Source of the DNA: Owenia fusiformis
Taxonomy: Eukaryota; Annelida; Polychaeta; Sabellida; Oweniidae
Direction of reading: 5' to 3'
Assembly: GCA_903813345.2 (NCBI GenBank)
Contig: CAIIXF020000003.1
Span: forward strand, 3,254,109-3,318,108
DNA length: 64,000 nucleotides
Within the stretch, counting starts at the first letter, position 1. Each line of letters begins with the position of its first letter. The position numbers and the translations under genes are program-made. Below, in pieces: positions 24,987 to 64,000 of this stretch. The notes beneath the pieces were generated by a model. That model searched no databases and had not been told where the DNA came from. It saw nothing but the letters and a program-made list of their open reading frames with translations.

Positions 24987-27900
24987 ATGCTTCGCACTTA
25001 CTTTTTTATTCAAGGATTGGTGCTTCGGTTGCCGCGGTTGGATGTTATTACACACAGAGCCATCGCAACAACAGTCCCCAATTCTGCGGGGGAGAAGTGG
25101 CGATTGCAGTAAGTACTATAATAGGACAACTTGAAATAACTCTGGCCACCAAGTTGCTTCTAGAGCACAGCTATAGTCACTATGTCTCTCATTTTCTTTC
25201 ATTTCTGTATCTGGCTTGTTTAACTATGCTTGGAAGTATTATGTTCCCTTGGGGTCCGTAGGTGCCCTCCAGTCATTACAAACTGATTCACGCTTTTGCT
25301 CTGCTCTACAATTGAAAAATTAATGGAGCATTTTTGGGGTTTTGTATCGGCAATTCATCTAATGAAGAAATATTTTGAAAAATTGCAGCCATTATTGTGT
25401 CATTTTATATTTTATGTTTGTGCATTGATAATTAGAATGTATTTTCCAGAAAGCATTACCCTATGCCTTTTGACAATTTGGCAAATGGGACTTTCCACCT
25501 AGTAATGTACATGTATTTCTGTTTCCATAATTCAAATATTGTTGTCTTCTGATCTTCTCATAACATTTTGATTTTTTGTGTTTTTAATTGACTAATACAT
25601 TTAACACTATTAATCTCTCATTTTTACTTCAGGCATGGCAAAGCTAGGTGTGGGAACGAATATGGTCCTTTAACAGATTTACCTGATTGGTCATATGTAG
25701 GTAAGTAGATGATGTTTAATATGGTCCTTTAACTGATTTACCTAATTGGTCATATGTAGGTAAGTAGGTGATGTTTAATATGGTCCTTTAACAGATTTAC
25801 CTGATTGGTCATATGTAGGTAAGTAGATGATGTTTAATATGATCCTTTAACAGATTTACTTGATTGGTCATATGTAGGTAAGTAGATGATGTTTAATATG
25901 GTCCTTTAACAGATTTACCTGATTGGTCATATGTAGGTAAGTAGATGATGTTTAATATGATCCTTTAACAGATTTACTTGATTGGTCATATGTAGGTAAG
26001 TAGATGATGTTTAATATGGTCCTTTAACTGATTTACCTAATTGGTCATATGTAGGTAAGTAGATGATGTTTAATATGGTCCTTTAACAGATTTACCTGAT
26101 TGGTCATATGTAGGTAAGTAGATGATGTTTAATATGATCCTTTAACAGATTTACTTGATTGGTCATATGTAGGTAAGTAGATGATGTTTAATATGGTCCT
26201 TTAACTGATTTACCTAATTGGTCATATGTAGGTAAGTAGGTGATGTTTAATATGGTCCTTTAACAGATTTACCTGATTGGTCATATGTAGGTAAGTAGAT
26301 GATGTTTAATATGATCCTTTAACAGATTTACCTGATTGGTCATATGTAGGTAAGTAGATGATGTTTAATATGGTCCTTTAACAGATTTACCTGATTGGTC
26401 ATATGTAGGTAAGTAGATGATGTTTAATATGATCCTTTAACAGATTTACTTGATTGGTCATATGTAGGTAAGTAGATGATGTTTAATATGGTCCTTTAAC
26501 AGATTTACCTGATTGGTCATATGTAGGTAAGTAGATGATGTTTAATATGGTCCTTTAACAGATTTACTTGATTGGTAATATGTAGGTAAGTAGGTGATGT
26601 TTAATATGGTCCTTTAACAGATTTACCTGATTTGTCATATGTAGGTAAGTAGATGATGTTTAATATGGTCCTTTAACAGATTTACCCGATTGGTCATATG
26701 TAGGTAAGTAGGTTATGTTTAATATGATCCTTTAACAGATTTACTTGATTGGTCATATGTAGGTAAGTAGATGATGTTTAATATGGTCCTTTAACAGATT
26801 TACCCGATTGGTCATATGTAGGTAAGTAGGTTATGTTTAATATGATCCTTTAACAGATTTACTTGATTGGTCATATGTAGGTAAGTAGATGATGTTTAAT
26901 ATGGTCCTTTAACAGATTTACCCGATTGGTCATATGTAGGTAAGTAGGTTATGTTTAATATGGTCCTTTAACAGATTTACCTGATTGGTCATATGTAGGT
27001 AAGTAGATGATGTTTAATATGGTCCTTTAACAGATTTACCCGATTGGTCATATGTAGGTAAGTAGGTTATGTTTAATATGATCCTTTAACAGATTTACTT
27101 GATTGGTCATATGTAGGTAAGTAGATGATGTTTAATATGATCCTTTAACAGATTTACCTGATTGGTCATATGTAGGTAAGTAGATGATGTTTAATATGAT
27201 CCTTTAACAGATTTACTTGATTGGTCATATGTAGGTAAGTAGATGATGTTTAATATGGTCCTTTAACAGATTTACCTGATTGGTCATATGTAGGTAAGTA
27301 GATGATGTTTAATATGATCCTTTAACAGATTTACCTGATTGGTCATATGTAGGTAAGTAGATGATGTTTAATATGGTCCTTTAACTGATTTACCTAATTG
27401 GTCATATGTAGGTAAGTAGGTGATGTTTAATATGGTCCTTTAACAGATTTACCTGATTGGTCATATGTAGGTAAGTAGATGATGTTTAATATGATCCTTT
27501 AACAGATTTACTTGATTGGTCATATGTAGGTAAGTAGATGATGTTTAATATGGTCCTTTAACAGATTTACCTGATTGGTCATATGTAGGTAAGTAGATGA
27601 TGTTTAATATGATCCTTTAACAGATTTACTTGATTGGTCATATGTAGGTAAGTAGATGATGTTTAATATGGTCCTTTAACTGACTTACCTAATTGGTCAT
27701 ATGTAGGTAAGTAGATGATGTTTAATATGGTCCTTTAACAGATTTACCTGATTGGTCATATGTAGGTAAGTAGATGATGTTTAATATGATCCTTTAACAG
27801 ATTTACTTGATTGGTCATATGTAGGTAAGTAGATGATGTTTAATATGGTCCTTTAACTGATTTACCTAATTGGTCATATGTAGGTAAGTAGGTGATGTTT

Positions 27901-30614
27901 AATATGGTCCTTTAACAGATTTACCTGATTGGTCATATGTAGGTAAGTAGATGATGTTTAATATGATCCTTTAACAGATTTACCTGATTGGTCATATGTA
28001 GGTAAGTAGATGATGTTTAATATGGTCCTTTAACAGATTTACCTGATTGGTCATATGTAGGTAAGTAGATGATGTTTAATATGATCCTTTAACAGATTTA
28101 CTTGATTGGTCATATGTAGGTAAGTAGATGATGTTTAATATGGTCCTTTAACAGATTTACCTGATTGGTCATATGTAGGTAAGTAGATGATGTTTAATAT
28201 GGTCCTTTAACAGATTTACTTGATTGGTAATATGTAGGTAAGTAGGTGATGTTTAATATGGTCCTTTAACAGATTTACCTGATTTGTCATATGTAGGTAA
28301 GTAGATGATGTTTAATATGGTCCTTTAACAGATTTACCCGATTGGTCATATGTAGGTAAGTAGGTTATGTTTAATATGATCCTTTAACAGATTTACTTGA
28401 TTGGTCATATGTAGGTAAGTAGATGATGTTTAATATGGTCCTTTAACAGATTTACCCGATTGGTCATATGTAGGTAAGTAGGTTATGTTTAATATGATCC
28501 TTTAACAGATTTACTTGATTGGTCATATGTAGGTAAGTAGATGATGTTTAATATGGTCCTTTAACAGATTTACCTGATTGGTCATATGTAGGTAAGTAGG
28601 TTATGTTTAATATGGTCCTTTAACAGATTTACCTGATTGGTCATATGTAGGTAAGTAGATGATGTTTAATATGGTCCTTTAACTGATTTACCTAATTGGT
28701 CATATGTAGGTAAGTAGGTGATGTTTAATATGGTCCTTTAACAGATTTACCTGATTGGTCATATGTAGGTAAGTAGATGATGTTTAATATGATCCTTTAA
28801 CAGATTTACCTGATTGGTCATATGTAGGTAAGTAGATGATGTTTAATATGGTCCTTTAACAGATTTACCTGATTGGTCATATGTAGGTAAGTAGATGATG
28901 TTTAATATGATCCTTTAACAGATTTACTTGATTGGTCATATGTAGGTAAGTAGATGATGTTTAATATGGTCCTTTAACAGATTTACCTGATTGGTCATAT
29001 GTAGGTAAGTAGATGATGTTTAATATGGTCCTTTAACAGATTTACTTGATTGGTAATATGTAGGTAAGTAGGTGATGTTTAATATGGTCCTTTAACAGAT
29101 TTACCTGATTTGTCATATGTAGGTAAGTAGATGATGTTTAATATGGTCCTTTAACAGATTTACCCGATTGGTCATATGTAGGTAAGTAGGTTATGTTTAA
29201 TATGATCCTTTAACAGATTTACTTGATTGGTCATATGTAGGTAAGTAGATGATGTTTAATATGGTCCTTTAACAGATTTACCCGATTGGTCATATGTAGG
29301 TAAGTAGGTTATGTTTAATATGATCCTTTAACAGATTTACTTGATTGGTCATATGTAGGTAAGTAGATGATGTTTAATATGGTCCTTTAACAGATTTACC
29401 CGATTGGTCATATGTAGGTAAGTAGGTTATGTTTAATATGGTCCTTTAACAGATTTACCTGATTGGTCATATGTAGGTAAGTAGATGATGTTTAATATGG
29501 TCCTTTAACAGATTTACCCGATTGGTCATATGTAGGTAAGTAGGTTATGTTTAATATGATCCTTTAACAGATTTACTTGATTGGTCATATGTAGGTAAGT
29601 AGATGATGTTTAATATGATCCTTTAACAGATTTACTTGATTGGTCATATGTAGGTAAGTAGGTTATGTTTAATATGATCCTTTAACAGATTTACTTGATT
29701 GGTCATATGTAGGTAAGTAGATGATGTTTAATATGGTCCTTTAACAGATTTACTTGATTGGTCATATGTAGGTAAGTAGATGATGTTTAATATGGTCCTT
29801 TAACAGATTTACCTGTTTGGTCATATGTAGGTAAGTAGGTGATGTTTAATATGGTCCTTTAACAGATTTACTTGATTGATCATATGTAGGTAAGTAGATG
29901 ATGTTTAATATGGTCCTTTAACAGATTTACCTGATTGGTCATATGCCAGTAAATAGGTTATGTTTAATATGATCCTTTAACAGATTTACCTGTTTGGTCA
30001 TATGTAGGTAAGTAGATGATGTTTAATATGATCCTTTAACATAAATTGTCTTATTGATCCAATGAAAATGTCAGAAAATTTTATTAAAATTTTCAAAATC
30101 TTCAAAGTTCCCCTGCTTATACAGTAAACCATAAATGGAATATTGTTTCCTTATCAAATACGTTTCACAGCATAACTTTATTATTACTCTTTGGACACCC
30201 TGTAATTGATCTCTTAATTTTTCAGATGGTCGTCCAGCTCCTTTAAATAGAGGGCAAGTGAGGAGAATCGAAGAAAGGAAACAATTAGCTGTAAGTATTA
30301 CTGTATTCTCTGTAACTGGTGGGGCATTTAGAAAATTGAAAAAATATCCTTCAGACCATTCCAGTAAGCGCCCATATAGTGTAAGAAGCCAAAAATCCCA
30401 TTCCTCCTTTAACCTTGATTTTGTTACAAACTTCCTTTTTTTAAAATATTCTCATTTTTCATTTCAGGAACAAATTCGGGAGGGAATAAGCGACCTACAA
30501 TTCGCTATAGCCAATCATGAGTATCGGACAAAGAAACAACAAGATGAAAGACAAGCAATAAAAGACAGTAAATTCAAACCTAAAAGACGATCAAACAAAA
30601 ATACAAGGACTTGA
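24987..30614 (+). CDS. MRPL52: MRPL52, mitochondrial large-subunit ribosomal protein mL52
   Basis: Four exons: 24,987-25,108, 25,633-25,700, 30,226-30,290 and 30,468-30,614; phases 2, 1, 0; 133 aa. The conserved mL52 core runs across exons 2-3: [14 protein letters not shown], then [14 protein letters not shown]. The C-terminus is a charged helix ending [12 protein letters not shown]. The N-terminal ~30 residues, from [18 protein letters not shown], are basic and hydrophobic without acids until later, as expected for a mitochondrial presequence. The start at 24,987 was preferred over an in-frame ATG at 24,927 because it places this presequence at the N-terminus; the alternative adds 20 residues. 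The protein is a structural part of the mitochondrial 39S subunit. Intron 2 (4,525 bp) is almost wholly a 59-bp array copied from its own 5' splice junction. A candidate ATTAAA signal is at 30,690. Confidence 0.93.
25660..30040 (+). repeat. 59-bp array of the MRPL52 exon 2 / intron 2 junction
   Basis: Each unit consists of ~41 nt matching the end of MRPL52 exon 2 (ATATGGTCCTTTAACAGATT, TACCTGATTGGTCATATGTAG) and the first ~18 nt of intron 2 (GTAAGTAGATGATGTTTA). The genuine donor is at 25,701 and the last copy at 30,008. The distance, 4,307 bp, is exactly 73 x 59, so 74 junction copies are present with no net indel. Variants recur (GGTCC/GATCC, ACCTG/ACTTG/ACCCG/ACCTA, AACAG/AACTG, GATG/GTTATG). 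A distinctive GGTAATATG unit repeats at 26,571, 28,223 and 29,049, offsets of 28 and 14 units, so blocks of 14 units were themselves duplicated. One late unit (29,941) has lost the donor. Confidence 0.97.
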
Positions 30615-32992: not shown

Positions 32993-35547
32993 ACTGGCGT
33001 AGCTAGGAATTCTCAAGGGGGGGTGCATGAGGCAAATTTTTCAGATTAATGAGGCAAATTTTTTTCTTTCAATGAGGCAAAAAAATCGGAAAGCGGCAAA
33101 AAGTGTCAATGGGACAAAATCTACTCACACATCATGTATAGTGCATAAAGTAACATTCACATCATCTAGATTACTAATATTTCAAACTGTTTTATTTATT
33201 AGCCATATCAGATATCACATTGTGATTAACCATTGTGAATAACCATCAAAAACATGACTTAGATATGGTTTATTTGGACATGTTATACTCTTTTGAACAG
33301 CCATAATAATCAAAACTTGTCCCAATAAAAAAACATTTTAAATATAATAATATTCTGTTTAATGACTGACTAAACAAGATCTTTGGTATCATGGCATTGC
33401 AACACAACTTTTAATAAAAACATAAATACCTTTAAATAATAAGGAATGAAAAGGTAATCTTATATATCATGACAATGCAGTAAAATACTGAATATTGGCA
33501 ACTCTTTTTAACCTCTTTATAATTCTTTAAATGGACCTAACAATGAGTCTTAATCAAAACAAAATTGTATAGATACCATTACAAGGCTATGTACTCTGTA
33601 ACAGTAAGTCTCTCTGATTTGGCATCCCATACTCTGTTACAGTAAGTCTCACTGATTTGGCACCCCATGGCACCATTGCAATATTATTAAAGATTACATT
33701 TCACAAAAAAGCATTTTAAAAGGAAAGGATCAAGATCTTAAATATCATTTTACAAGGAAATGACATTTTAAATATCATGACAATTTAATGCAATGCAGTA
33801 TATGTACAACCTTTAAATACTGAAAATTCCTTTAATTTGACATCAACTTGAAGATGTTCAATTCAGCCTTATATAGCTTTTAGATTACAACAAACAAAAA
33901 GTCATGCTACATATAACTAATGAATTGACTGGTGATATATCAGTCAATGCTAGGACATATTTCTTACTAATATTTTGACAAAACAGTTGACAAAGTTTTC
34001 TACAGATATTTTCACTTACAATCTATAACTTGTTACATGTATTGTATGTAAGTAAATAGCCTCTGTTCACAATACCATATTACGAGATCCAGAGCTTTCA
34101 TTAAGAAGTGATAATATGTCTTGTGTACTTGATAAATGTTTTTTATGGCATTGGACGTGATGTTTGGTATGGTATCACTCACTATCTATCTTTTTAGTAT
34201 GATTATTATTAGGTAGTTACGTACATGTAGAAGTACATTTCGACATATTCCCTAAACATACATGGGGTGATAACTTATAGACTTACCCTCCACAGATGAT
34301 TCATTGATTGGTATTGCACATTACTTTTGGTATGGGATCCTACTGATATTTATGTATTTGTACGGGTATGGACCTATATCCTCTTGGTACGGGGTTGGGG
34401 CATGTGAACGATTTGATATCAAAAGGCCACGAAGCCTCGCCAATGCTCAATGGGAATACAACATTGTAACATTCAATGAGAATGATATTATGATCCTGGC
34501 AAACGCCTTCAAATGCTGACGCACTTGCCCAGCCTTTATGAGATCCCGGGAATATGATTTGTATATAGATAATCTATATCAAATACAGGAGAGTTCAGCA
34601 CATGACGAAAGGAAAAAAAAGTGAAATAGGCTTCAAAGAATCAGGTGTGTTGGTTCCATACCTATAGAGACACAACTCTGGCGAATATTTTAATAAGTGG
34701 CAGTTGTAAAAATACACAATCTATATCGTGAAAAGTGAAATTCAGGAATGGGGGAAATATATTTAAGAGAAAGGGGTGTCAGCTTAGCAGACAACTTTTG
34801 AGTGGTTGGCTCCTTCCATATAAATACGCAAAATATGCGAAGCATGTTTATTTAAATGTATCTTGTTAAAAATGGGTATATGCATCGTGATTATTCATCA
34901 ACAGAAAAGAGGAGAGAATTTTTTACGAATCCTTCCACCCCCACACTTATAATGGACACGACCATGCTAACACAGCAATATTCTTCTCAAAAAACTTGAA
35001 AATTAATCGTCTTGTTCCTACTGTTCTGGTTTTTATTTTTCAGTATTTTTACGCTCAAAAAGTAACTATTACTTACATTCATCACCTCTACAAATCATCC
35101 TCTCACAACTAATCCAAATTATATCGTAATCTGTAGAATTCAATTGGAGCATTTACAGAAGATTTGTGCTCAGGCTGTGCTTTTCGTTCAGTGTTGAAGG
35201 CGGGATAAAATTTCTTGCGCAAATTTGAAAAGGTTGCGCAATACACTATCATGGTCAAATTTATTCGCGCAGTGCTACAACCGGAAGTTTATGAGAACGA
35301 AACATTCTTTCTCTCATTTTTAATAGATCTTGGGTATTAATCAGAGTGACATTCCAGGTTCTCGTATGGAAAGTGGCGTCAAAGCCATGGAGAAAGTGCT
35401 ACAAGTGACTTGAGGCAAAATATTCACGTTTTTTCTGAGGCAAATAAAAAAAAATTGACGAGTCAAATTTTGTAAAAAGCGACGAGGCAAAACTCAAGGG
35501 GGGGGGTGCAAGCGCACCCGACGCGACCCCCTGGCGACGGCCTTGAA
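32993..35547. mobile_element. Putative 2.5-kb non-autonomous element with GAGGCAAA ends
   Basis: The left end reads ACTGGCGTAGCTAGG, then AAGGGGGGGTGCATGAGGCA. The right end, read in reverse, gives GGCCGTCGCCAGGGG, then GCACCCCCCCCCTTGAG and TTTTGCCTCGTCG. The termini are thus imperfect inverted repeats, each followed by a GAGGCAAA tract. Related GAGGCAAA tracts occur at 19,470-19,600 and 20,090-20,200. The interior has no recognisable transposase; the longest frame, near 34,304, is unconvincing. Confidence 0.5.
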
Positions 35548-40784: not shown

Positions 40785-42950
40785 CAGACGGTAACCGGAC
40801 AACTCATCCCCTAGACAACTCATCCCTGGACAACTCATCCCCTAGACAAGTCATCCCCTGGACAAGTCATCCCCTAGACAAGTCATCCCCTGGACAAGTC
40901 ATCCCCTGGACAACTCATCCCCTAGACAGCTCATCCCCTGGACAAGTCATCCCCTGGACAACTCATCCCCTAGACAGCTCATCCCCTGGACAACTCATCC
41001 CCTGGACGACTAATCTTTTGGCATGTTTGAGTATAGTAATTTAATATTATATTACCAATTCAAAGGTTTAAATGTATTGGTTGTGGATATGGTCAGCTTT
41101 AAGTTTCAAAAAACATATATTACATGAACACTGTTACTCCACTCAATTACGCTGTCGATCCGTTTGGGTAACAAAATGTTGGAGCCTCGAAGGTATATAC
41201 GATTTTTCTTTTTTTCCTTATTTCACGAGTTGTAGGCTGAATTCCCATGACATTCTATGTCTGGCTTTTGAAACTTTATGTAAACAGAACTTCTAAAACG
41301 GTTAAGATCTGCACTTCTAACCCGTTCCGTTTATGCATGGGCTTTCAATTAGATATGGTTCATGTAACAATAGTGAGGTATTAAATCAACAATTCTGTTG
41401 TCTTCTGTACTATTTGTTTGCAAACATGTACATTTTCTTAAACATATGCTACCGACAAACGTTTGTGATAAAAATGTCGTGGGAATTCTGCCTGCAACAC
41501 CGGAATTAGGTAAAAATCAAAATCGATCGTTTCTTTGAGGTTCCGACATTTTGTTACGATCCATTTCAGTAACCAGCATAATCTATTGGAGTACCAGTCA
41601 GTGATTAACAAAAACTTTCTGGAGGGGAAAATTGCTAAAAAACAAAGACATAATCAACCAATTAATCTGTGATTTGCTTTGTAAATATTTACTTTTCGTT
41701 TCGATATGATATTAATTAACCAGAGACATATAAAACATTATATGTCTCTGTATTAACATTGATTGAACAAGTTCATTTGATGTTATAATATGTTTGTTGT
41801 TCATAGCTCAAATATTCTTTAATCCAAAGATTATTTTTTCACAGCATTCACAGATGAAGTTAATGAAGTTAATGTTTAAGTTATACACAAAGATAACTTT
41901 ATTTGTTTGGTCAGGAAATATTGAGTCATGTAATATAAGAAGAAGAGATGAGAGTTTTAATGACATCGTTTGACTGTTTATTTGTGTCAGTAAAGTGAAA
42001 AATAATATTTTGAATGATCTAAGATGTATTTACTAAGCATTTCTTTTCAAGACACACTTTACAATTTAGCTTCATGTGATGAAGGATGAGTTGTCCAGGG
42101 GATGAGTTGTCCAGGGGATGAGTTGTCCAGGGGATGAGTTGTCTAGGGATGAGTTGTCCAGGGGATGAGTTGTCTAGGGGATGAGATGTCTAGGGGATGA
42201 GTTGTCTAGGGGATGAGATGTCCAGGGATGAGTTGTCTAGGGGATGAGTTGTCCGTAAGCCCTTACAGACAACTCATCCCTAGACAACTCATCCCTGGAC
42301 AACTCATCCCTTGGACATCTCATCCCCTGGACATCTTATCCCCTAGACAACTCATCCCCTGGACAACTCATTCCCTAGACAACTCATCCCCTAGACAACT
42401 CATCCCTAGACAACTCATCCCCTGGACAACTCATCCCCTAGACAACTCATCCTTTATCACATGAAGCCAAATTGTTAAGTTTTTTGGATAATAAATATTA
42501 ATCAAATACACCTTAAATCATTCTAAATATTATTTTTGACTTTATTGATACAAATAAAATGGTCAAACGGTGCCATTAAAACTTTCATATTTTGTCCTTG
42601 TATTACATGACAAAAAAATAAAGTTTTCTCTCTGCATAATTTTGAAACATGAACTTCAGTAACTTCATCTGTGACTGCTGTGAAAAAATTATCTTTGGAT
42701 TAAAGAATATTTGAAGTTCTGTTTACGTAACAAAGGTGAGGTATTACCGTAAATCGGGGATCGTGTTAATCTACTTAAATTATATATTGAATTAATAATA
42801 TTACATTTAATTACTCAAACATGCCAAAGGATGAGTTGTCCAGGGGATGAGTTGTCTAGGGGATGAGCTGTCCATGGGATGCGTTGTCCAGGGATGAGTT
42901 GTCCAGGGATGAGTTGTCCAGGGGATGAGTTGTCCGGTTACCCTACAGTA
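40785..42950. mobile_element. Foldback element tipped by GACAACTCATCCCCTG repeats
   Basis: The left tip (40,790-41,010) starts GGTAACCGGACAACTCATCC and continues as ~14 units of the 15-16-bp word GACAACTCATCCCCTA/G. The right tip (42,830-42,945) is the reverse complement, ending GATGAGTTGTCCGGTTACC. At the centre two further arrays face each other (42,085-42,255 and 42,265-42,450). Flanking unique sequence is also inverted: ~41,800-42,080 against ~42,455-42,720 (shared AACTTCATCTGTGA, TTTCACATGAAGC-like words). The right arm is shorter, apparently by deletion. No coding capacity; a foldback-type transposon. Confidence 0.8.
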
Positions 42951-47359: not shown

Positions 47360-50300
47360 CTAGGCAATCAAAAACTGTTTATAGATCCTCTCTTCTTTTT
47401 CATTTTTGAACTTGGGTAAAAAATTCACTTTCACAATTTCGGAAAATCCTTCCGCTAAAGTTGGCGGAGTGAATTTCGACTTGTAAGAGTTCATGATCAT
47501 GTCATTGATTGGTTGATGAGCTGGGTTTGTTATCTTGCGGAAGGCTTCGTTGTGACGCGCCTGTTGTAAGGTTGTGTTGAAGATAAAGCATCTACAGGGA
47601 ACGCCTGCTTCCTTGGCTACACTGGTGTACCTGGAATATTTTAAAATCAAATATATTGACGTCAATGTTTTATATCATACAGTAAAACCTGTTTAAAGTG
47701 AAACACTTCCTTCAGACCCTCACATGATCACCAACTCGATGTATAATAATATCTTTTTTATTAGAAAGTCTGATTTTTAACCCCTACTTCAAAACATTAT
47801 TGCTTTTTAGAATAATAACACATATCTCTTTTTACTACACAGTGTCAAATTTCATGATTTTATGTTTTAATTACTGTAAAACGTTTTTGATTGACATATA
47901 GCAAAATGGGAACAGTGACCTCATTATGATTCACAATGTAGTTTCAATTATGGGAAAGGTTTGTCAAGTAAAGTTAAGTGTTCTTTATATAGATGTCACT
48001 TGTAGTAGTAGACAAACCCTGTAAAGGTCATGTGTTGGTCGGATATGTATTAAATAGAGGCATTTACTTTTAACTAATTATTGCCTGTGATAAAGTTTTG
48101 TAAAACTCCTAAGACGGCAGGTGTAAAAGGGTAGGAGGTCCAATCAAATTATGGTCCTACTTTCCATTGATTTATATGGTGACCTAAATAAAACTCTCCC
48201 TTACTATTGTATCCCTAATCAGGGCCAGAAAGGGCCATTAAGAAAGGGGACCATAATCCCCAGGGGACCATAATTTCTTTCACACCGGTATTATCCGTAC
48301 CTCTGTCTTGATTCTTGATCTGGGCTAGTGTTGTCTACAGCCACCTTCTGTCCCTGGCTTACAGCCTTTTTGCACGCTTGTACACATTTCTGCCAGCTGC
48401 CAAGCTGATCCTGAAGAAACAAGTACAGTGCAATCCGAAAAGTTGAACACTTCTGTGAGGGGAACAGTTTTAAGGCTCCCCTGATCAACTTATATGAATC
48501 TCTAAAGTGGAACACATCTTAAAGTGGAGCACATCATAAAGTGATAAAGTGGAGCACATTGTACAGTGCGTAAAGTGGAACACATCGTAATGTGAAACAC
48601 ATTGTAAAATAGAACACATCTTAAAGTGGAACACATCGTAAAGTGGAACACAACTTAAAGTGGAACACATTGTAAAGAGGAACACATCTTAAAGTGAAAC
48701 ACATCGTAAAGTGGAACACAACTTAAAGTGGAACACATTGTAAAGTAGAACACATCTTAAAGTGAAACACATCGTAAAGTGGAACACAACTTAAAGTGGA
48801 ACACATCGTAAAGTGGAACACATCGTAAAATGGAACACATTTTAAAGTGGAACACATCTTAAAGTGGAACACATCGTAAAATGGAACACATCTTAAGTGG
48901 AACACATCGCAGAGTGGAACATAACTTAAAGTGGAACACATCTTAAAGTGGAACACATCTTAGAGGTACCAAAGGTGTTCCATGTACACACGCTTTCGTG
49001 TATCCTCTTTCGATTTTGAATCTTTAAAAGAAGCCTCCCTAATCCAAACATCTCGCAATCTGAACTTTAAACTCATTTTTCCATCTCAATTTTTTAACTC
49101 ACATTGACATTAATAGAAACCCTGAGATGTGAAAATCTGCAAATTGGAACATTTTTTGCTAGTTCCGCAATCTGCAAATTGGAACATTTTTTGCCAGTTC
49201 CGCATTCGAATGGGACTGGTTTTATTCCAACTTAATGTTGTTGTGGTGACCAACATATTGAACACTAAGTCTTTAGCATTGTACATTTTTCTTTCCATTT
49301 TTAAAGTTTAACTAATACTAAGAAGTGGGTCATCTATGTATTCAGATTTCCTCACCCTGTTGACATGGAGATACCCAGCAGGCTTCAGATACGTCTCAGT
49401 GAAGAATGTTTTTCCAGAAGCAGGGAATCCAACTAGTACAATAATCTCCTGTCCCTCAGACACTATCTTGGCTCCTGCTGGAGTTGTCAATGGACCACTG
49501 CTGTCAACACTACCCTGGATAATAAAGATGAGCATACAGACATGAAACATACAGACATTTGAAACATACAGACATATGAAACATACTTGTAGGAGGCATA
49601 TGAAATATTGAAATGTGTGTTTGCACTGTTTTCTGCTGCATATTTTAGCTGTATTTTGAATGAATCTTTGCTTCAAACATACTTACAGGGTTAAATTCAG
49701 GCATATTAAAAGGTACTTTGCTCCAACCATACTAACAGGGTTAAATTCAGGCATATTAAAAGGTGCTTTGCTCCAACCATACTTACAGGGTTAAATTCAG
49801 GCATATTAAAAGGTGCTTTGCTCCAACCATACTTACAGGGTTAAATTCAGGCATATTAAAAGGTGCTTTACTCCAACCATACTTACAGGGTTAAATTCAG
49901 GCATATTAAAAGGTGCTTTGCTCCAACCATACTTACAGGGTTAAATTCAATTATGCTAAAAGATGATTGCTCCAACCATACTTACAGGGTTAAATTCAGG
50001 CATATTAAAAGGTGCTTTGCTTCAACCATACTTACAGGGTTAAATTCAGGCATGTTAAAAGGTGCTTTGCTCCAGCCCTGAAAAAACTCCTCTGGTGTGT
50101 AGAACTTCAGAGCTGCATTCACGGCAAACTGTAAGAAAGAGCGTGTATTTGCTTCACATAAAAGGCAATCTAAATCATTGAACTTGTATGGACATTTTAT
50201 TAGACTCGAATCTGGAAGCTGAGAACCAGCCAATTCTCGAAATTAATCATCTTTAATGCGTTTTTTTGTAGTAATACTTTTTCAATTTCCTGATCAGTCT

Positions 50301-62984: not shown

Positions 62985-64000
62985 CGAGGGAAGATCCAAA
63001 AGTTTCCGGCCTAACATAGTTCTAGTTGATGGATTTTCAAAATGATAGTGTCATTTTTCAATGTAGTCTCCCTGTACTTCGATGCACTTGGCCCATCTTC
63101 TTGGCAGCATCTCAAGTCCAGTTCTGAAGAAATCAGGAGCATGACCCTCCAACCACTGGTTAACAGCTATCTTGACCTCATTATCATCATCAAAGCGTTG
63201 CCCTCGTAGAGATTTTTTGAGTTTCCCAAATAGGTAATAGTCACTGGGTGCTTGATCTGGAGAATAGGGTGCGTGCGGTAATAATTCCAGATGGCATTCT
63301 TCTGCTGCATCACGAGCAACTTGGCTTGTGTGAACAGGTGCATTGTCCTGTTGATGCAAAACTCCAAGACGGACTTTGTGTGGCCTGGTTTCATCAAGGT
63401 TAGCTTTTAAAGTACGCAACAAAGCAGCATAATATTCTCCATTCATTGTAGTACCTCTTGGAAGGTAGTCTACTAAGATAGGACCTTCACAGTCCCAGAA
63501 AATGGTGGCCATCATCTTTTTGTTGGATGGGGTGGTGCGAAACTTCTTTGGAGGTGGGGACCCCATATGTTTCCATTGCATTGACTCATGTTTGGTTGAA
63601 GGCTCAAAATGACGCACCCATGTTTCATCACAAGTGACTATTCTCTCCATAAAACCTTGTGGATCAGTGTTATACATGTCCAAAAGCTCTCTTGCAACAG
63701 CAACTCGTTTTGTTTTCATGTCCTCTGTGAGCATACGGGGCACCCATCTTGAGCTTAACTTTTGCATGTGTAAATCTTCATGAATTATTCTACAAACGGT
63801 ACCATATGATAATCCAGTTTATTCTACAAGTTCACGTATAGATTTCCGCCTATCTTCCAATATTGTTCGATGTACAAGATCAACATTTCTATCTGAAGTG
63901 ACATCTTTAGGTCTTCCAGAACGTGGTGCATCATCGATTGATTCCCGCCCACGTTTAAATTCAGCCACCCAAAATTTTACAGTAGAATAGGAGGGAGCAC
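62985..64000 (-). mobile_element. mariner element, truncated by the window edge
   Basis: The 3' end begins after a TA at 62,983 with CGAGGGAAGATCCAAAAGTT, a mariner-type terminal repeat. The transposase lies on the minus strand and runs to the right edge. The other terminus is outside the window. Confidence 0.85.
63051..64000 (-). pseudogene. mariner transposase with one in-frame stop, 5' end cut off
   Basis: DD34D mariner transposase. The open part (63,767-63,051, 238 aa) contains VTCDETWVRHFEP, HQQDNAPVHTS and PYSPDQAPSDYYLF. Exactly 34 residues separate the second Asp from the Asp of PSD, the mariner spacing. Upstream of 63,767 the same frame continues to the edge with the helix-turn-helix part ([20 protein letters not shown], then LSYGTVCRIIHEDL), interrupted once by TAA in the ELVE*TGLS segment near 63,820. 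Apart from this stop the gene looks intact over the visible part, so the insertion is fairly young. Confidence 0.88.

Follow-up and report, generated by a model that had tools for sequence, protein, structure and literature searches.

The window analyzed here, a stretch of 64,000 nt (G000:C3:3254109-3318108) in a 498-Mb animal assembly, contains the gene for the mitochondrial ribosomal protein MRPL52, in whose second intron the 5′ splice junction of that same intron is repeated in tandem. The gene lies on the forward strand (+). The coding part of exon 1 (24,987–25,108) starts with the ATG at 24,987 and ends at the donor CA/GTAAGT, where the slash marks the splice point. It is followed by exon 2 (25,633–25,700, 68 nt), exon 3 (30,226–30,290) and exon 4, including the stop codon (30,468–30,614). 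Intron 2 (25,701–30,225) is a phase 1 intron of 4,525 nt, with the genuine 5′ splice site, TAG/GTAAGT, at 25,701–25,706 and the genuine 3′ splice site at 30,206–30,225. The spliced product of 133 amino acids matches the Pfam family PF18699 (MRPL52) with E = 1.9e-28, residues 35–124 aligning with positions 1–90 of the 92 in the profile, so that the gene is indeed the conserved mitochondrial ribosomal gene named in the original prediction, a note made on this DNA before the present analysis. The alignment runs across the join of exons 2 and 3 as made from the first donor, and this homology is the best evidence for 25,701 as the probable functional donor. No second copy or retrocopy (the fossil of a spliced mRNA) of MRPL52 was present among 41 genome matches at E ≤ 10, all of which correspond to the gene and its array.

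The array spans 25,659–30,041 (+) and consists of 74 full units of 59 bp and a 17-nt partial unit. Tandem Repeats Finder (TRF) gave a period of 59, 74.3 copies, 94% matches, 0% indels and a score of 7891 for this segment, its length being that of the assembly alone. Each unit joins 42 nt from the end of exon 2 to 17 nt from the start of intron 2. The authentic exon end (25,659–25,700) forms the exonic part of the first unit, and 73 copies follow downstream, on the intron side. Both TRF and a unit table agree with the 74 copies at 59 bp that had been predicted from the end of exon 2 and the start of intron 2; the sequence upstream of the donors is exonic, as proposed, but measures 42 nt rather than 40 nt. 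Read in register, the 74 full units fall into 16 sequence types, and AG/GTAAGT is found in 73 of them, in line with the consensus donor expected in nearly every unit. The 73 further donors, one per 59 bp (25,760–30,013, +), have their first G at 25,760 and their last at 30,008; the unit table places the genuine donor (25,701) and the last copy (30,008) where the original prediction had them. GT is kept in all of these extra units and AG/GTAAGT in 72, which carry the genuine 9-mer, while the sole deviating donor, CCA/GTAAAT in unit 73, lies at 29,949. The genuine acceptor (30,225) is outside the array, and removal of the 73 extra units leaves an intron of 218 nt without copies.

There is also a higher-order duplication within the array. 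The block of 16 unit types formed by units 10–25 (26,190–27,133, +) recurs in order as units 52–67 (28,668–29,611), a shift of 42 units, and units 8–21 also recur, as units 36–49. Blocks of 16 units repeated at a shift of 42 units fit the pattern given by unequal exchange. When 128 bases of the junction were searched against the genome, 73 matches were returned at E ≤ 0.001, every one inside the MRPL52 array; this search skips very common words, and its single-place result is no proof of absence elsewhere. A chance origin of the array is excluded.

Later donors, if used, would break the protein. With donors 2, 3, 10 and 74, the four that were tried, the protein ends after ...SYVGK and then a stop, exactly the V-G-K-stop that had been foreseen. 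The gene, the coordinates, the unit and the donor given in the original prediction hold as well, as does its argument that the first donor must be used. The strength of the donors is unable to decide this choice, because 72 of the 73 extra units equal the first donor in their match to the U1 consensus, against which the donors were compared. Acceptors were scored with a table built on 22 acceptor sites taken from loci in the same genome, the lowest of which scored 5.4 (leave-one-out). In intron 2, the genuine acceptor scored 13.7, a value flattered by its presence among the 22 training acceptors, and all other AGs scored 2.2 or less. The TAGs of the units scored no higher than 1.5 as acceptors (median −1.3), compared to at least 5.4 in the 22 real acceptors. 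Since no internal AG scores like a real acceptor, microexons and recursive splicing of the array are unlikely.

The original prediction had treated the MRPL52 array as one locus. However, a second array of this kind lies in the same window, on the donor of PNKP, and there are more in the genome. The PNKP exon (50,036–50,128, −) ends in CCT/GTAAGT, and TRF found a 50-bp unit repeated 8.2 times at 49,666–50,074 (−), starting in that exon. Three joined exons matched Pfam PNK3P with E = 3.3e-8. Six of the seven extra units equal the first one in their match to U1.

A search of the whole genome for three AGGTAAGT octamers at a spacing of 30–60 bases gave 448 forward places and 146 reverse ones (reversed octamer, 184 and 144); at a spacing of 60–90 bases it gave 337 and 211 (reversed octamer, 163 and 176). 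These are not array counts, because many places are units of one array. The places were listed in contig order, reaching contig C3 for the 30–60 spacing and C6 for the 60–90 spacing; contigs C1 and C2 (97.95 Mb, 19.7% of the genome) were taken as complete because the lists run on beyond both, and the array counts below refer to these two contigs unless otherwise stated. They contain 15 AGGTAAGT arrays (7 + 8), corresponding by simple proportion to ≈76 arrays for this octamer at periods 38–98 in the whole genome. In 14 of the 15, inspection by eye showed the first unit to form the end of a reading frame resembling an exon, the exception being locus L008. Pfam matches with E ≤ 1e-3 were obtained for eight: tetraspanin (two joined exons), Muted, NIF phosphatase, ligand-gated channel, UDP-glucose dehydrogenase, Hsp70, COR-B and C-type lectin, with the tetraspanin and COR-B matches under Pfam's curated cut-off. 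L005 reached merely 0.043, and the other six gave no match. A replicate was made with AGGTGAGT, using the first six distinct arrays among those listed up to 19.35 Mb of C1, the other strand of L003 aside. One had Pfam support (L042), three were exon-like by frame and acceptor without a Pfam E ≤ 1e-3 (L040, L044 and L045), one was in frame and ambiguous (L041) and one, not given to Pfam, had no exon sign (L043). The intron part of the unit was 20 nt or less in 13 of the 19 arrays measured, a count that leaves out the twentieth array (L007) and misjudges L003 because its exon has diverged; as an overall test of donor position this is weak (Kolmogorov–Smirnov p = 0.064).

Arrays of the same class are found on the acceptor side. 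By eye, 8 of the 12 TTTTCAGG arrays end at the start of an exon (L016, L017, L018, L021, L024, L025, L026 and L027). Six of these eight had a Pfam match with E ≤ 1e-3, those of L018 and L021 being under the curated cut-off; the other two are L017, putatively SMUG1, which gave no Pfam hit, and L026, putatively THEM6, which was too short for a Pfam search. The 50-bp array at L021:955-2087 (G000:C2) lies on the acceptor side of an SBF-like transporter exon, and its units carry CAAGTAAG too, so that one unit may hold both an acceptor and a donor. Another acceptor array, at G000:C3:2522786-2523641, has a unit like the start of a septin P-loop exon (GAGAATCTGGTCTTGGCAAGTCAACATTAATCAATTCA), recognized by eye alone. 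With the control octamer TGAATGGA, a splice junction was found in the unit of none of 11 arrays, one reading frame per locus having been given to Pfam, a thinner search than that for the donors. Control array L035 sits in an intron just past an SLC6-type exon. Control array L037 (L037:1401-2410, G000:C2) is a 24-bp repeat of ≈42 copies within a serpin-like exon, open and in frame, giving EWLNPFNP repeats.

We also followed the reading frame through 17 anchored arrays, that is, MRPL52, PNKP, 14 of the 15 AGGTAAGT arrays and L042. If splicing took place from the second donor, a stop would fall within the retained unit in 15 of these, the frame would shift in one (PNKP) and one (L001) would gain an in-frame insertion. 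(The frame of L003 was unmatched by the script, and both of its open frames lead to a stop in the unit.) The period is not a multiple of 3 in 12 arrays and is a multiple in 5, close to the two thirds and one third to be expected without selection on frame. The array copies behave as sequence that never reaches protein.

The explanation that we favor, with a probability of roughly three in four, is that the MRPL52 array is a "mirage", a minisatellite kept harmless by splicing from the first donor, which exon definition selects. A tandem duplication straddling the boundary of exon 2 and intron 2 would have given birth to the minisatellite, and unequal exchange would have led to its growth. With splicing from the 5′-most donor, the 73 extra copies, decoy donors included, would lie inside the removed intron, and the array would be tolerated, and presumably neutral, because all extra copies are left there. 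The first donor is not favored by its sequence, because 72 of the 73 decoys are identical to it; it would win by position, because no other donor is as close, measured across the exon, to the acceptor of exon 2. The units themselves would not be made into exons because there is no good acceptor inside the array. An upstream preference among 5′ splice sites of near-equal strength has been reported for human exon-definition events (PMC9225289).

Several observations weigh against this explanation. The upstream preference is a bias, reported as 60% over all near-equal-strength events (PMC9225289), and is thus insufficient alone to explain the choice of 1 donor over 73. Furthermore, human tandem repeats at exon–intron boundaries can alter splicing (PMC2812944). 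The decoy donors in MRPL52 are not decaying, with 0.006 compared to 0.033 changes per site, a figure based on few independent changes, all from one unit. Pooled over 14 arrays (L005, L006 and L007 dropped out), the values were 0.022 and 0.052, and here there is a bias, most of the arrays having been found through intact octamers. Finally, true junctions are overrepresented among the arrays. We used an exon model, trained without array exons, that called for an acceptor scoring 5 or more and a frame that stays open as far as the donor. It was satisfied by 11 of the 15 array-first donors, compared to 10 of 40 single AGGTAAGT sites (Fisher 0.0017), the latter taken among the sites listed, all on the + strand in the first 2.2 Mb of C1; at random positions in the window it held for 56 of 400. 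Thresholds from 4 to 7 gave p values of 0.0002 to 0.0017 for the enrichment of arrays over single sites, which comes with the caveats of small counts and a single control octamer. The model missed four arrays: L009, whose exon is long (476 open codons); L011, whose exon brings its own ATG; L014, whose acceptor falls just below threshold; and L008. An earlier model had accepted 13 of 15 arrays, 10 of 40 single sites and 11 of 80 decoys, and was rerun without the array exons because it had been partly trained on them. Plain random birth does not predict such an excess of AGGTAAGT arrays on true junctions.

A tentative extension, which we regard as possible but doubtful, is that splice junctions themselves are hotspots of minisatellite birth in this apparent protostome, and that a boundary-tied process keeps making mirages. 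Candidate processes would be transcription, U1 binding, RNA–DNA hybrids and template switching. The enrichment just described may point to such junction-targeted birth, but preferential retention would look the same. Relative to the number of octamer sites, however, arrays are not more frequent than with the single control octamer. AGGTAAGT occurs 19,150 times in the genome and its reverse, the control, 33,930 times; arrays with periods 38–68 number 7 for AGGTAAGT and 11 for the control. The per-site frequencies are about the same, which argues against any general excess and is expected if births are not special. If junctions were hotspots, the genome would amount to a natural collection of competing-splice-site experiments.

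The array might instead be put to use, its dozens of U1 sites acting as a sponge against early polyadenylation, in chromatin retention, or in the tuning of MRPL52 through decoy splicing and decay. The 73 intact U1-type sites among 74 units and the lack of decay in the decoys are consistent with such a role, but the low rate of donor change in MRPL52 reflects few independent events, and arrays occur in genes as unrelated as those for a tetraspanin, an ion channel, UDP-glucose dehydrogenase, an Hsp70-like protein, a C-type lectin and PNKP, with units and copy numbers that differ among the host genes and no hint of a shared purpose. We therefore consider a function of this kind unlikely. It is quite improbable, too, that the AG/GT units are dual-specific or recursive splice sites through which the intron is removed stepwise and wrong donors are mended by re-splicing, as might be proposed by comparison with human UBC, which employs a tandem array of dual-specific sites (PMC10809524). 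TAG/GTAAGT, the core of a dual-specific site, is present in 73 of the 74 units, but the acceptor scores of the TAGs given above fall far below those of the real acceptors. Very improbable is a reading of each unit as a 24-nt microexon, CAG/ATTTACCTGATTGGTCATATGTAG/GTAAGT, of phase 1-1, adding DLPDWSYV in frame and producing variable protein repeats. Of the 73 extra units, 66 do have a CAG placed exactly 24 nt upstream of the donor, with the frame kept; in the other 7, however, it is changed to CTG, 4 of the 73 contain a stop, one lacks the AG/GTAAGT donor, the intron between neighboring units would be 35 nt, and the CAG scores at most 2.2 as an acceptor, compared to at least 5.4 for real ones. 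An assembly artifact, which the use of an assembly without reads would allow, is just as remote, given that the units are of 16 distinct types arranged in blocks, that the genome matches fall at a single place and that similar arrays occur independently elsewhere.

The window is rich in tandem repeats: the merged TRF arrays over positions 1–64,000 number 51 and occupy 10,435 bp. One TRF row with CAGTAAGT, at 33,592, had no exon-like context visible by eye. Four 16-bp arrays of GGACAACTCATCCCCT or its complement, alternating in orientation, lie at 40,797–42,935. The same 26-bp repeat is found at 863–912 and 1,861–1,910, 998 bp apart, which suggests a duplicated segment of ≈1 kb. A 255-amino-acid open frame at 63,051–63,818 (−) matches Pfam Transposase_1.

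The host lineage was assessed by means of marker genes. The microRNA family bantam (RF00727), a protostome marker, gave one full-length match in the genome (E = 9.3e-8), its 53.2 bits being under the family cut-off of 61. The corresponding 81-nt hairpin has a folding energy of −28.6 kcal/mol (z = −4.5); its sequence includes TGAGATCATTGTGAAAACTGATT, which we take to be the spiralian form of bantam. Amphioxus carries lancelet-type green fluorescent protein (GFP) genes and is not known to have bantam. There were no genome matches for the GFP family, for lancelet-derived GFP or for the mollusc haemocyanin family, in searches made without a positive control. Amphioxus as the host is disfavored by the bantam match and the lack of GFP matches, and the host looks like a protostome.

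The MRPL52 array constitutes a natural test of spliceosome choice, in which one of 74 near-equal, evenly spaced 5′ splice sites has to be selected. The later donors that were tried in this gene disrupt the protein. Arrays on the donor side and on the acceptor side coexist in this genome, and opposite predictions can be compared: exon definition predicts use of the first donor and the last acceptor, and intron definition the reverse.

The original prediction knew of no described system of this kind. However, mirages have been published in amphioxus (PMC3087553, PMC3902484) and boundary repeats in human (PMC2812944). In a literature search by titles and abstracts, limited mostly to papers outside subscription journals, no junction array was recognized in a protostome. 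The minisatellites of earthworm metallothionein and abalone TSSK1 are placed in introns and, in the accessible text, are not described as junction repeats (PMC12783039, PMC6905558). In human UBC, tandem dual-specific splice sites have been reported (PMC10809524), and the evenly repeated AG/GT sites within a tandem repeat resemble those seen here. Unlike the coding repeats of UBC, whose sites serve as donors and acceptors, the MRPL52 repeats are frame-breaking and have no acceptor context. Intron gain by AGGT tandem duplication (the Rogers model; potato RNA-dependent RNA polymerase) likewise involves copying of a splice junction, with the extra exon copies becoming intronic (PMC3443670, PMC4974935). 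In that case a new intron arises, whereas the MRPL52 intron was most likely pre-existing and then lengthened.

The human boundary repeats are variable tandem repeats at exon–intron boundaries of genes in segmental duplications, described in 2009 together with changed splicing (PMC2812944). They share with the MRPL52 array a minisatellite expansion at the boundary and the lengthening of introns. Their units average 30 bp × 4, they occur in young paralogs, and they can create new introns and alternative splicing (PMC2812944), in contrast to the 59 bp × 74 of MRPL52, for which no second gene copy was found and the tested later donors break the protein.

The closest resemblance is to the mirages of amphioxus, described in 2010 as minisatellite-like tandem duplications of exon/intron boundaries in globin genes and, by citation, in Adh3 (PMC3087553), and described again in 2013 in PGBD5 and, by citation, in troponin C (TnC) (PMC3902484). 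Either boundary can duplicate, the repeats homogenize, reverse transcription PCR suggests normal splicing, and intron gain has been proposed (PMC3087553). Both systems consist of tandem units across a splice junction, with many copies of the AG/GT signal and concerted evolution. They differ in size, the MRPL52 array having 74 units of 59 bp, compared to 6 and 3 units of 150–160 bp in two BflGb6 haplotypes (10–72 bp in Adh3), and in the evidence on splicing, which is reported to be normal from RNA in amphioxus, while the MRPL52 array is known from DNA alone. The hosts differ as well, amphioxus being a cephalochordate and the present host, by bantam, a protostome. The MRPL52 array thus belongs to a known kind, the mirages, with a very large number of units; mirages are now found in an apparent protostome, and they suggest a route of intron growth.

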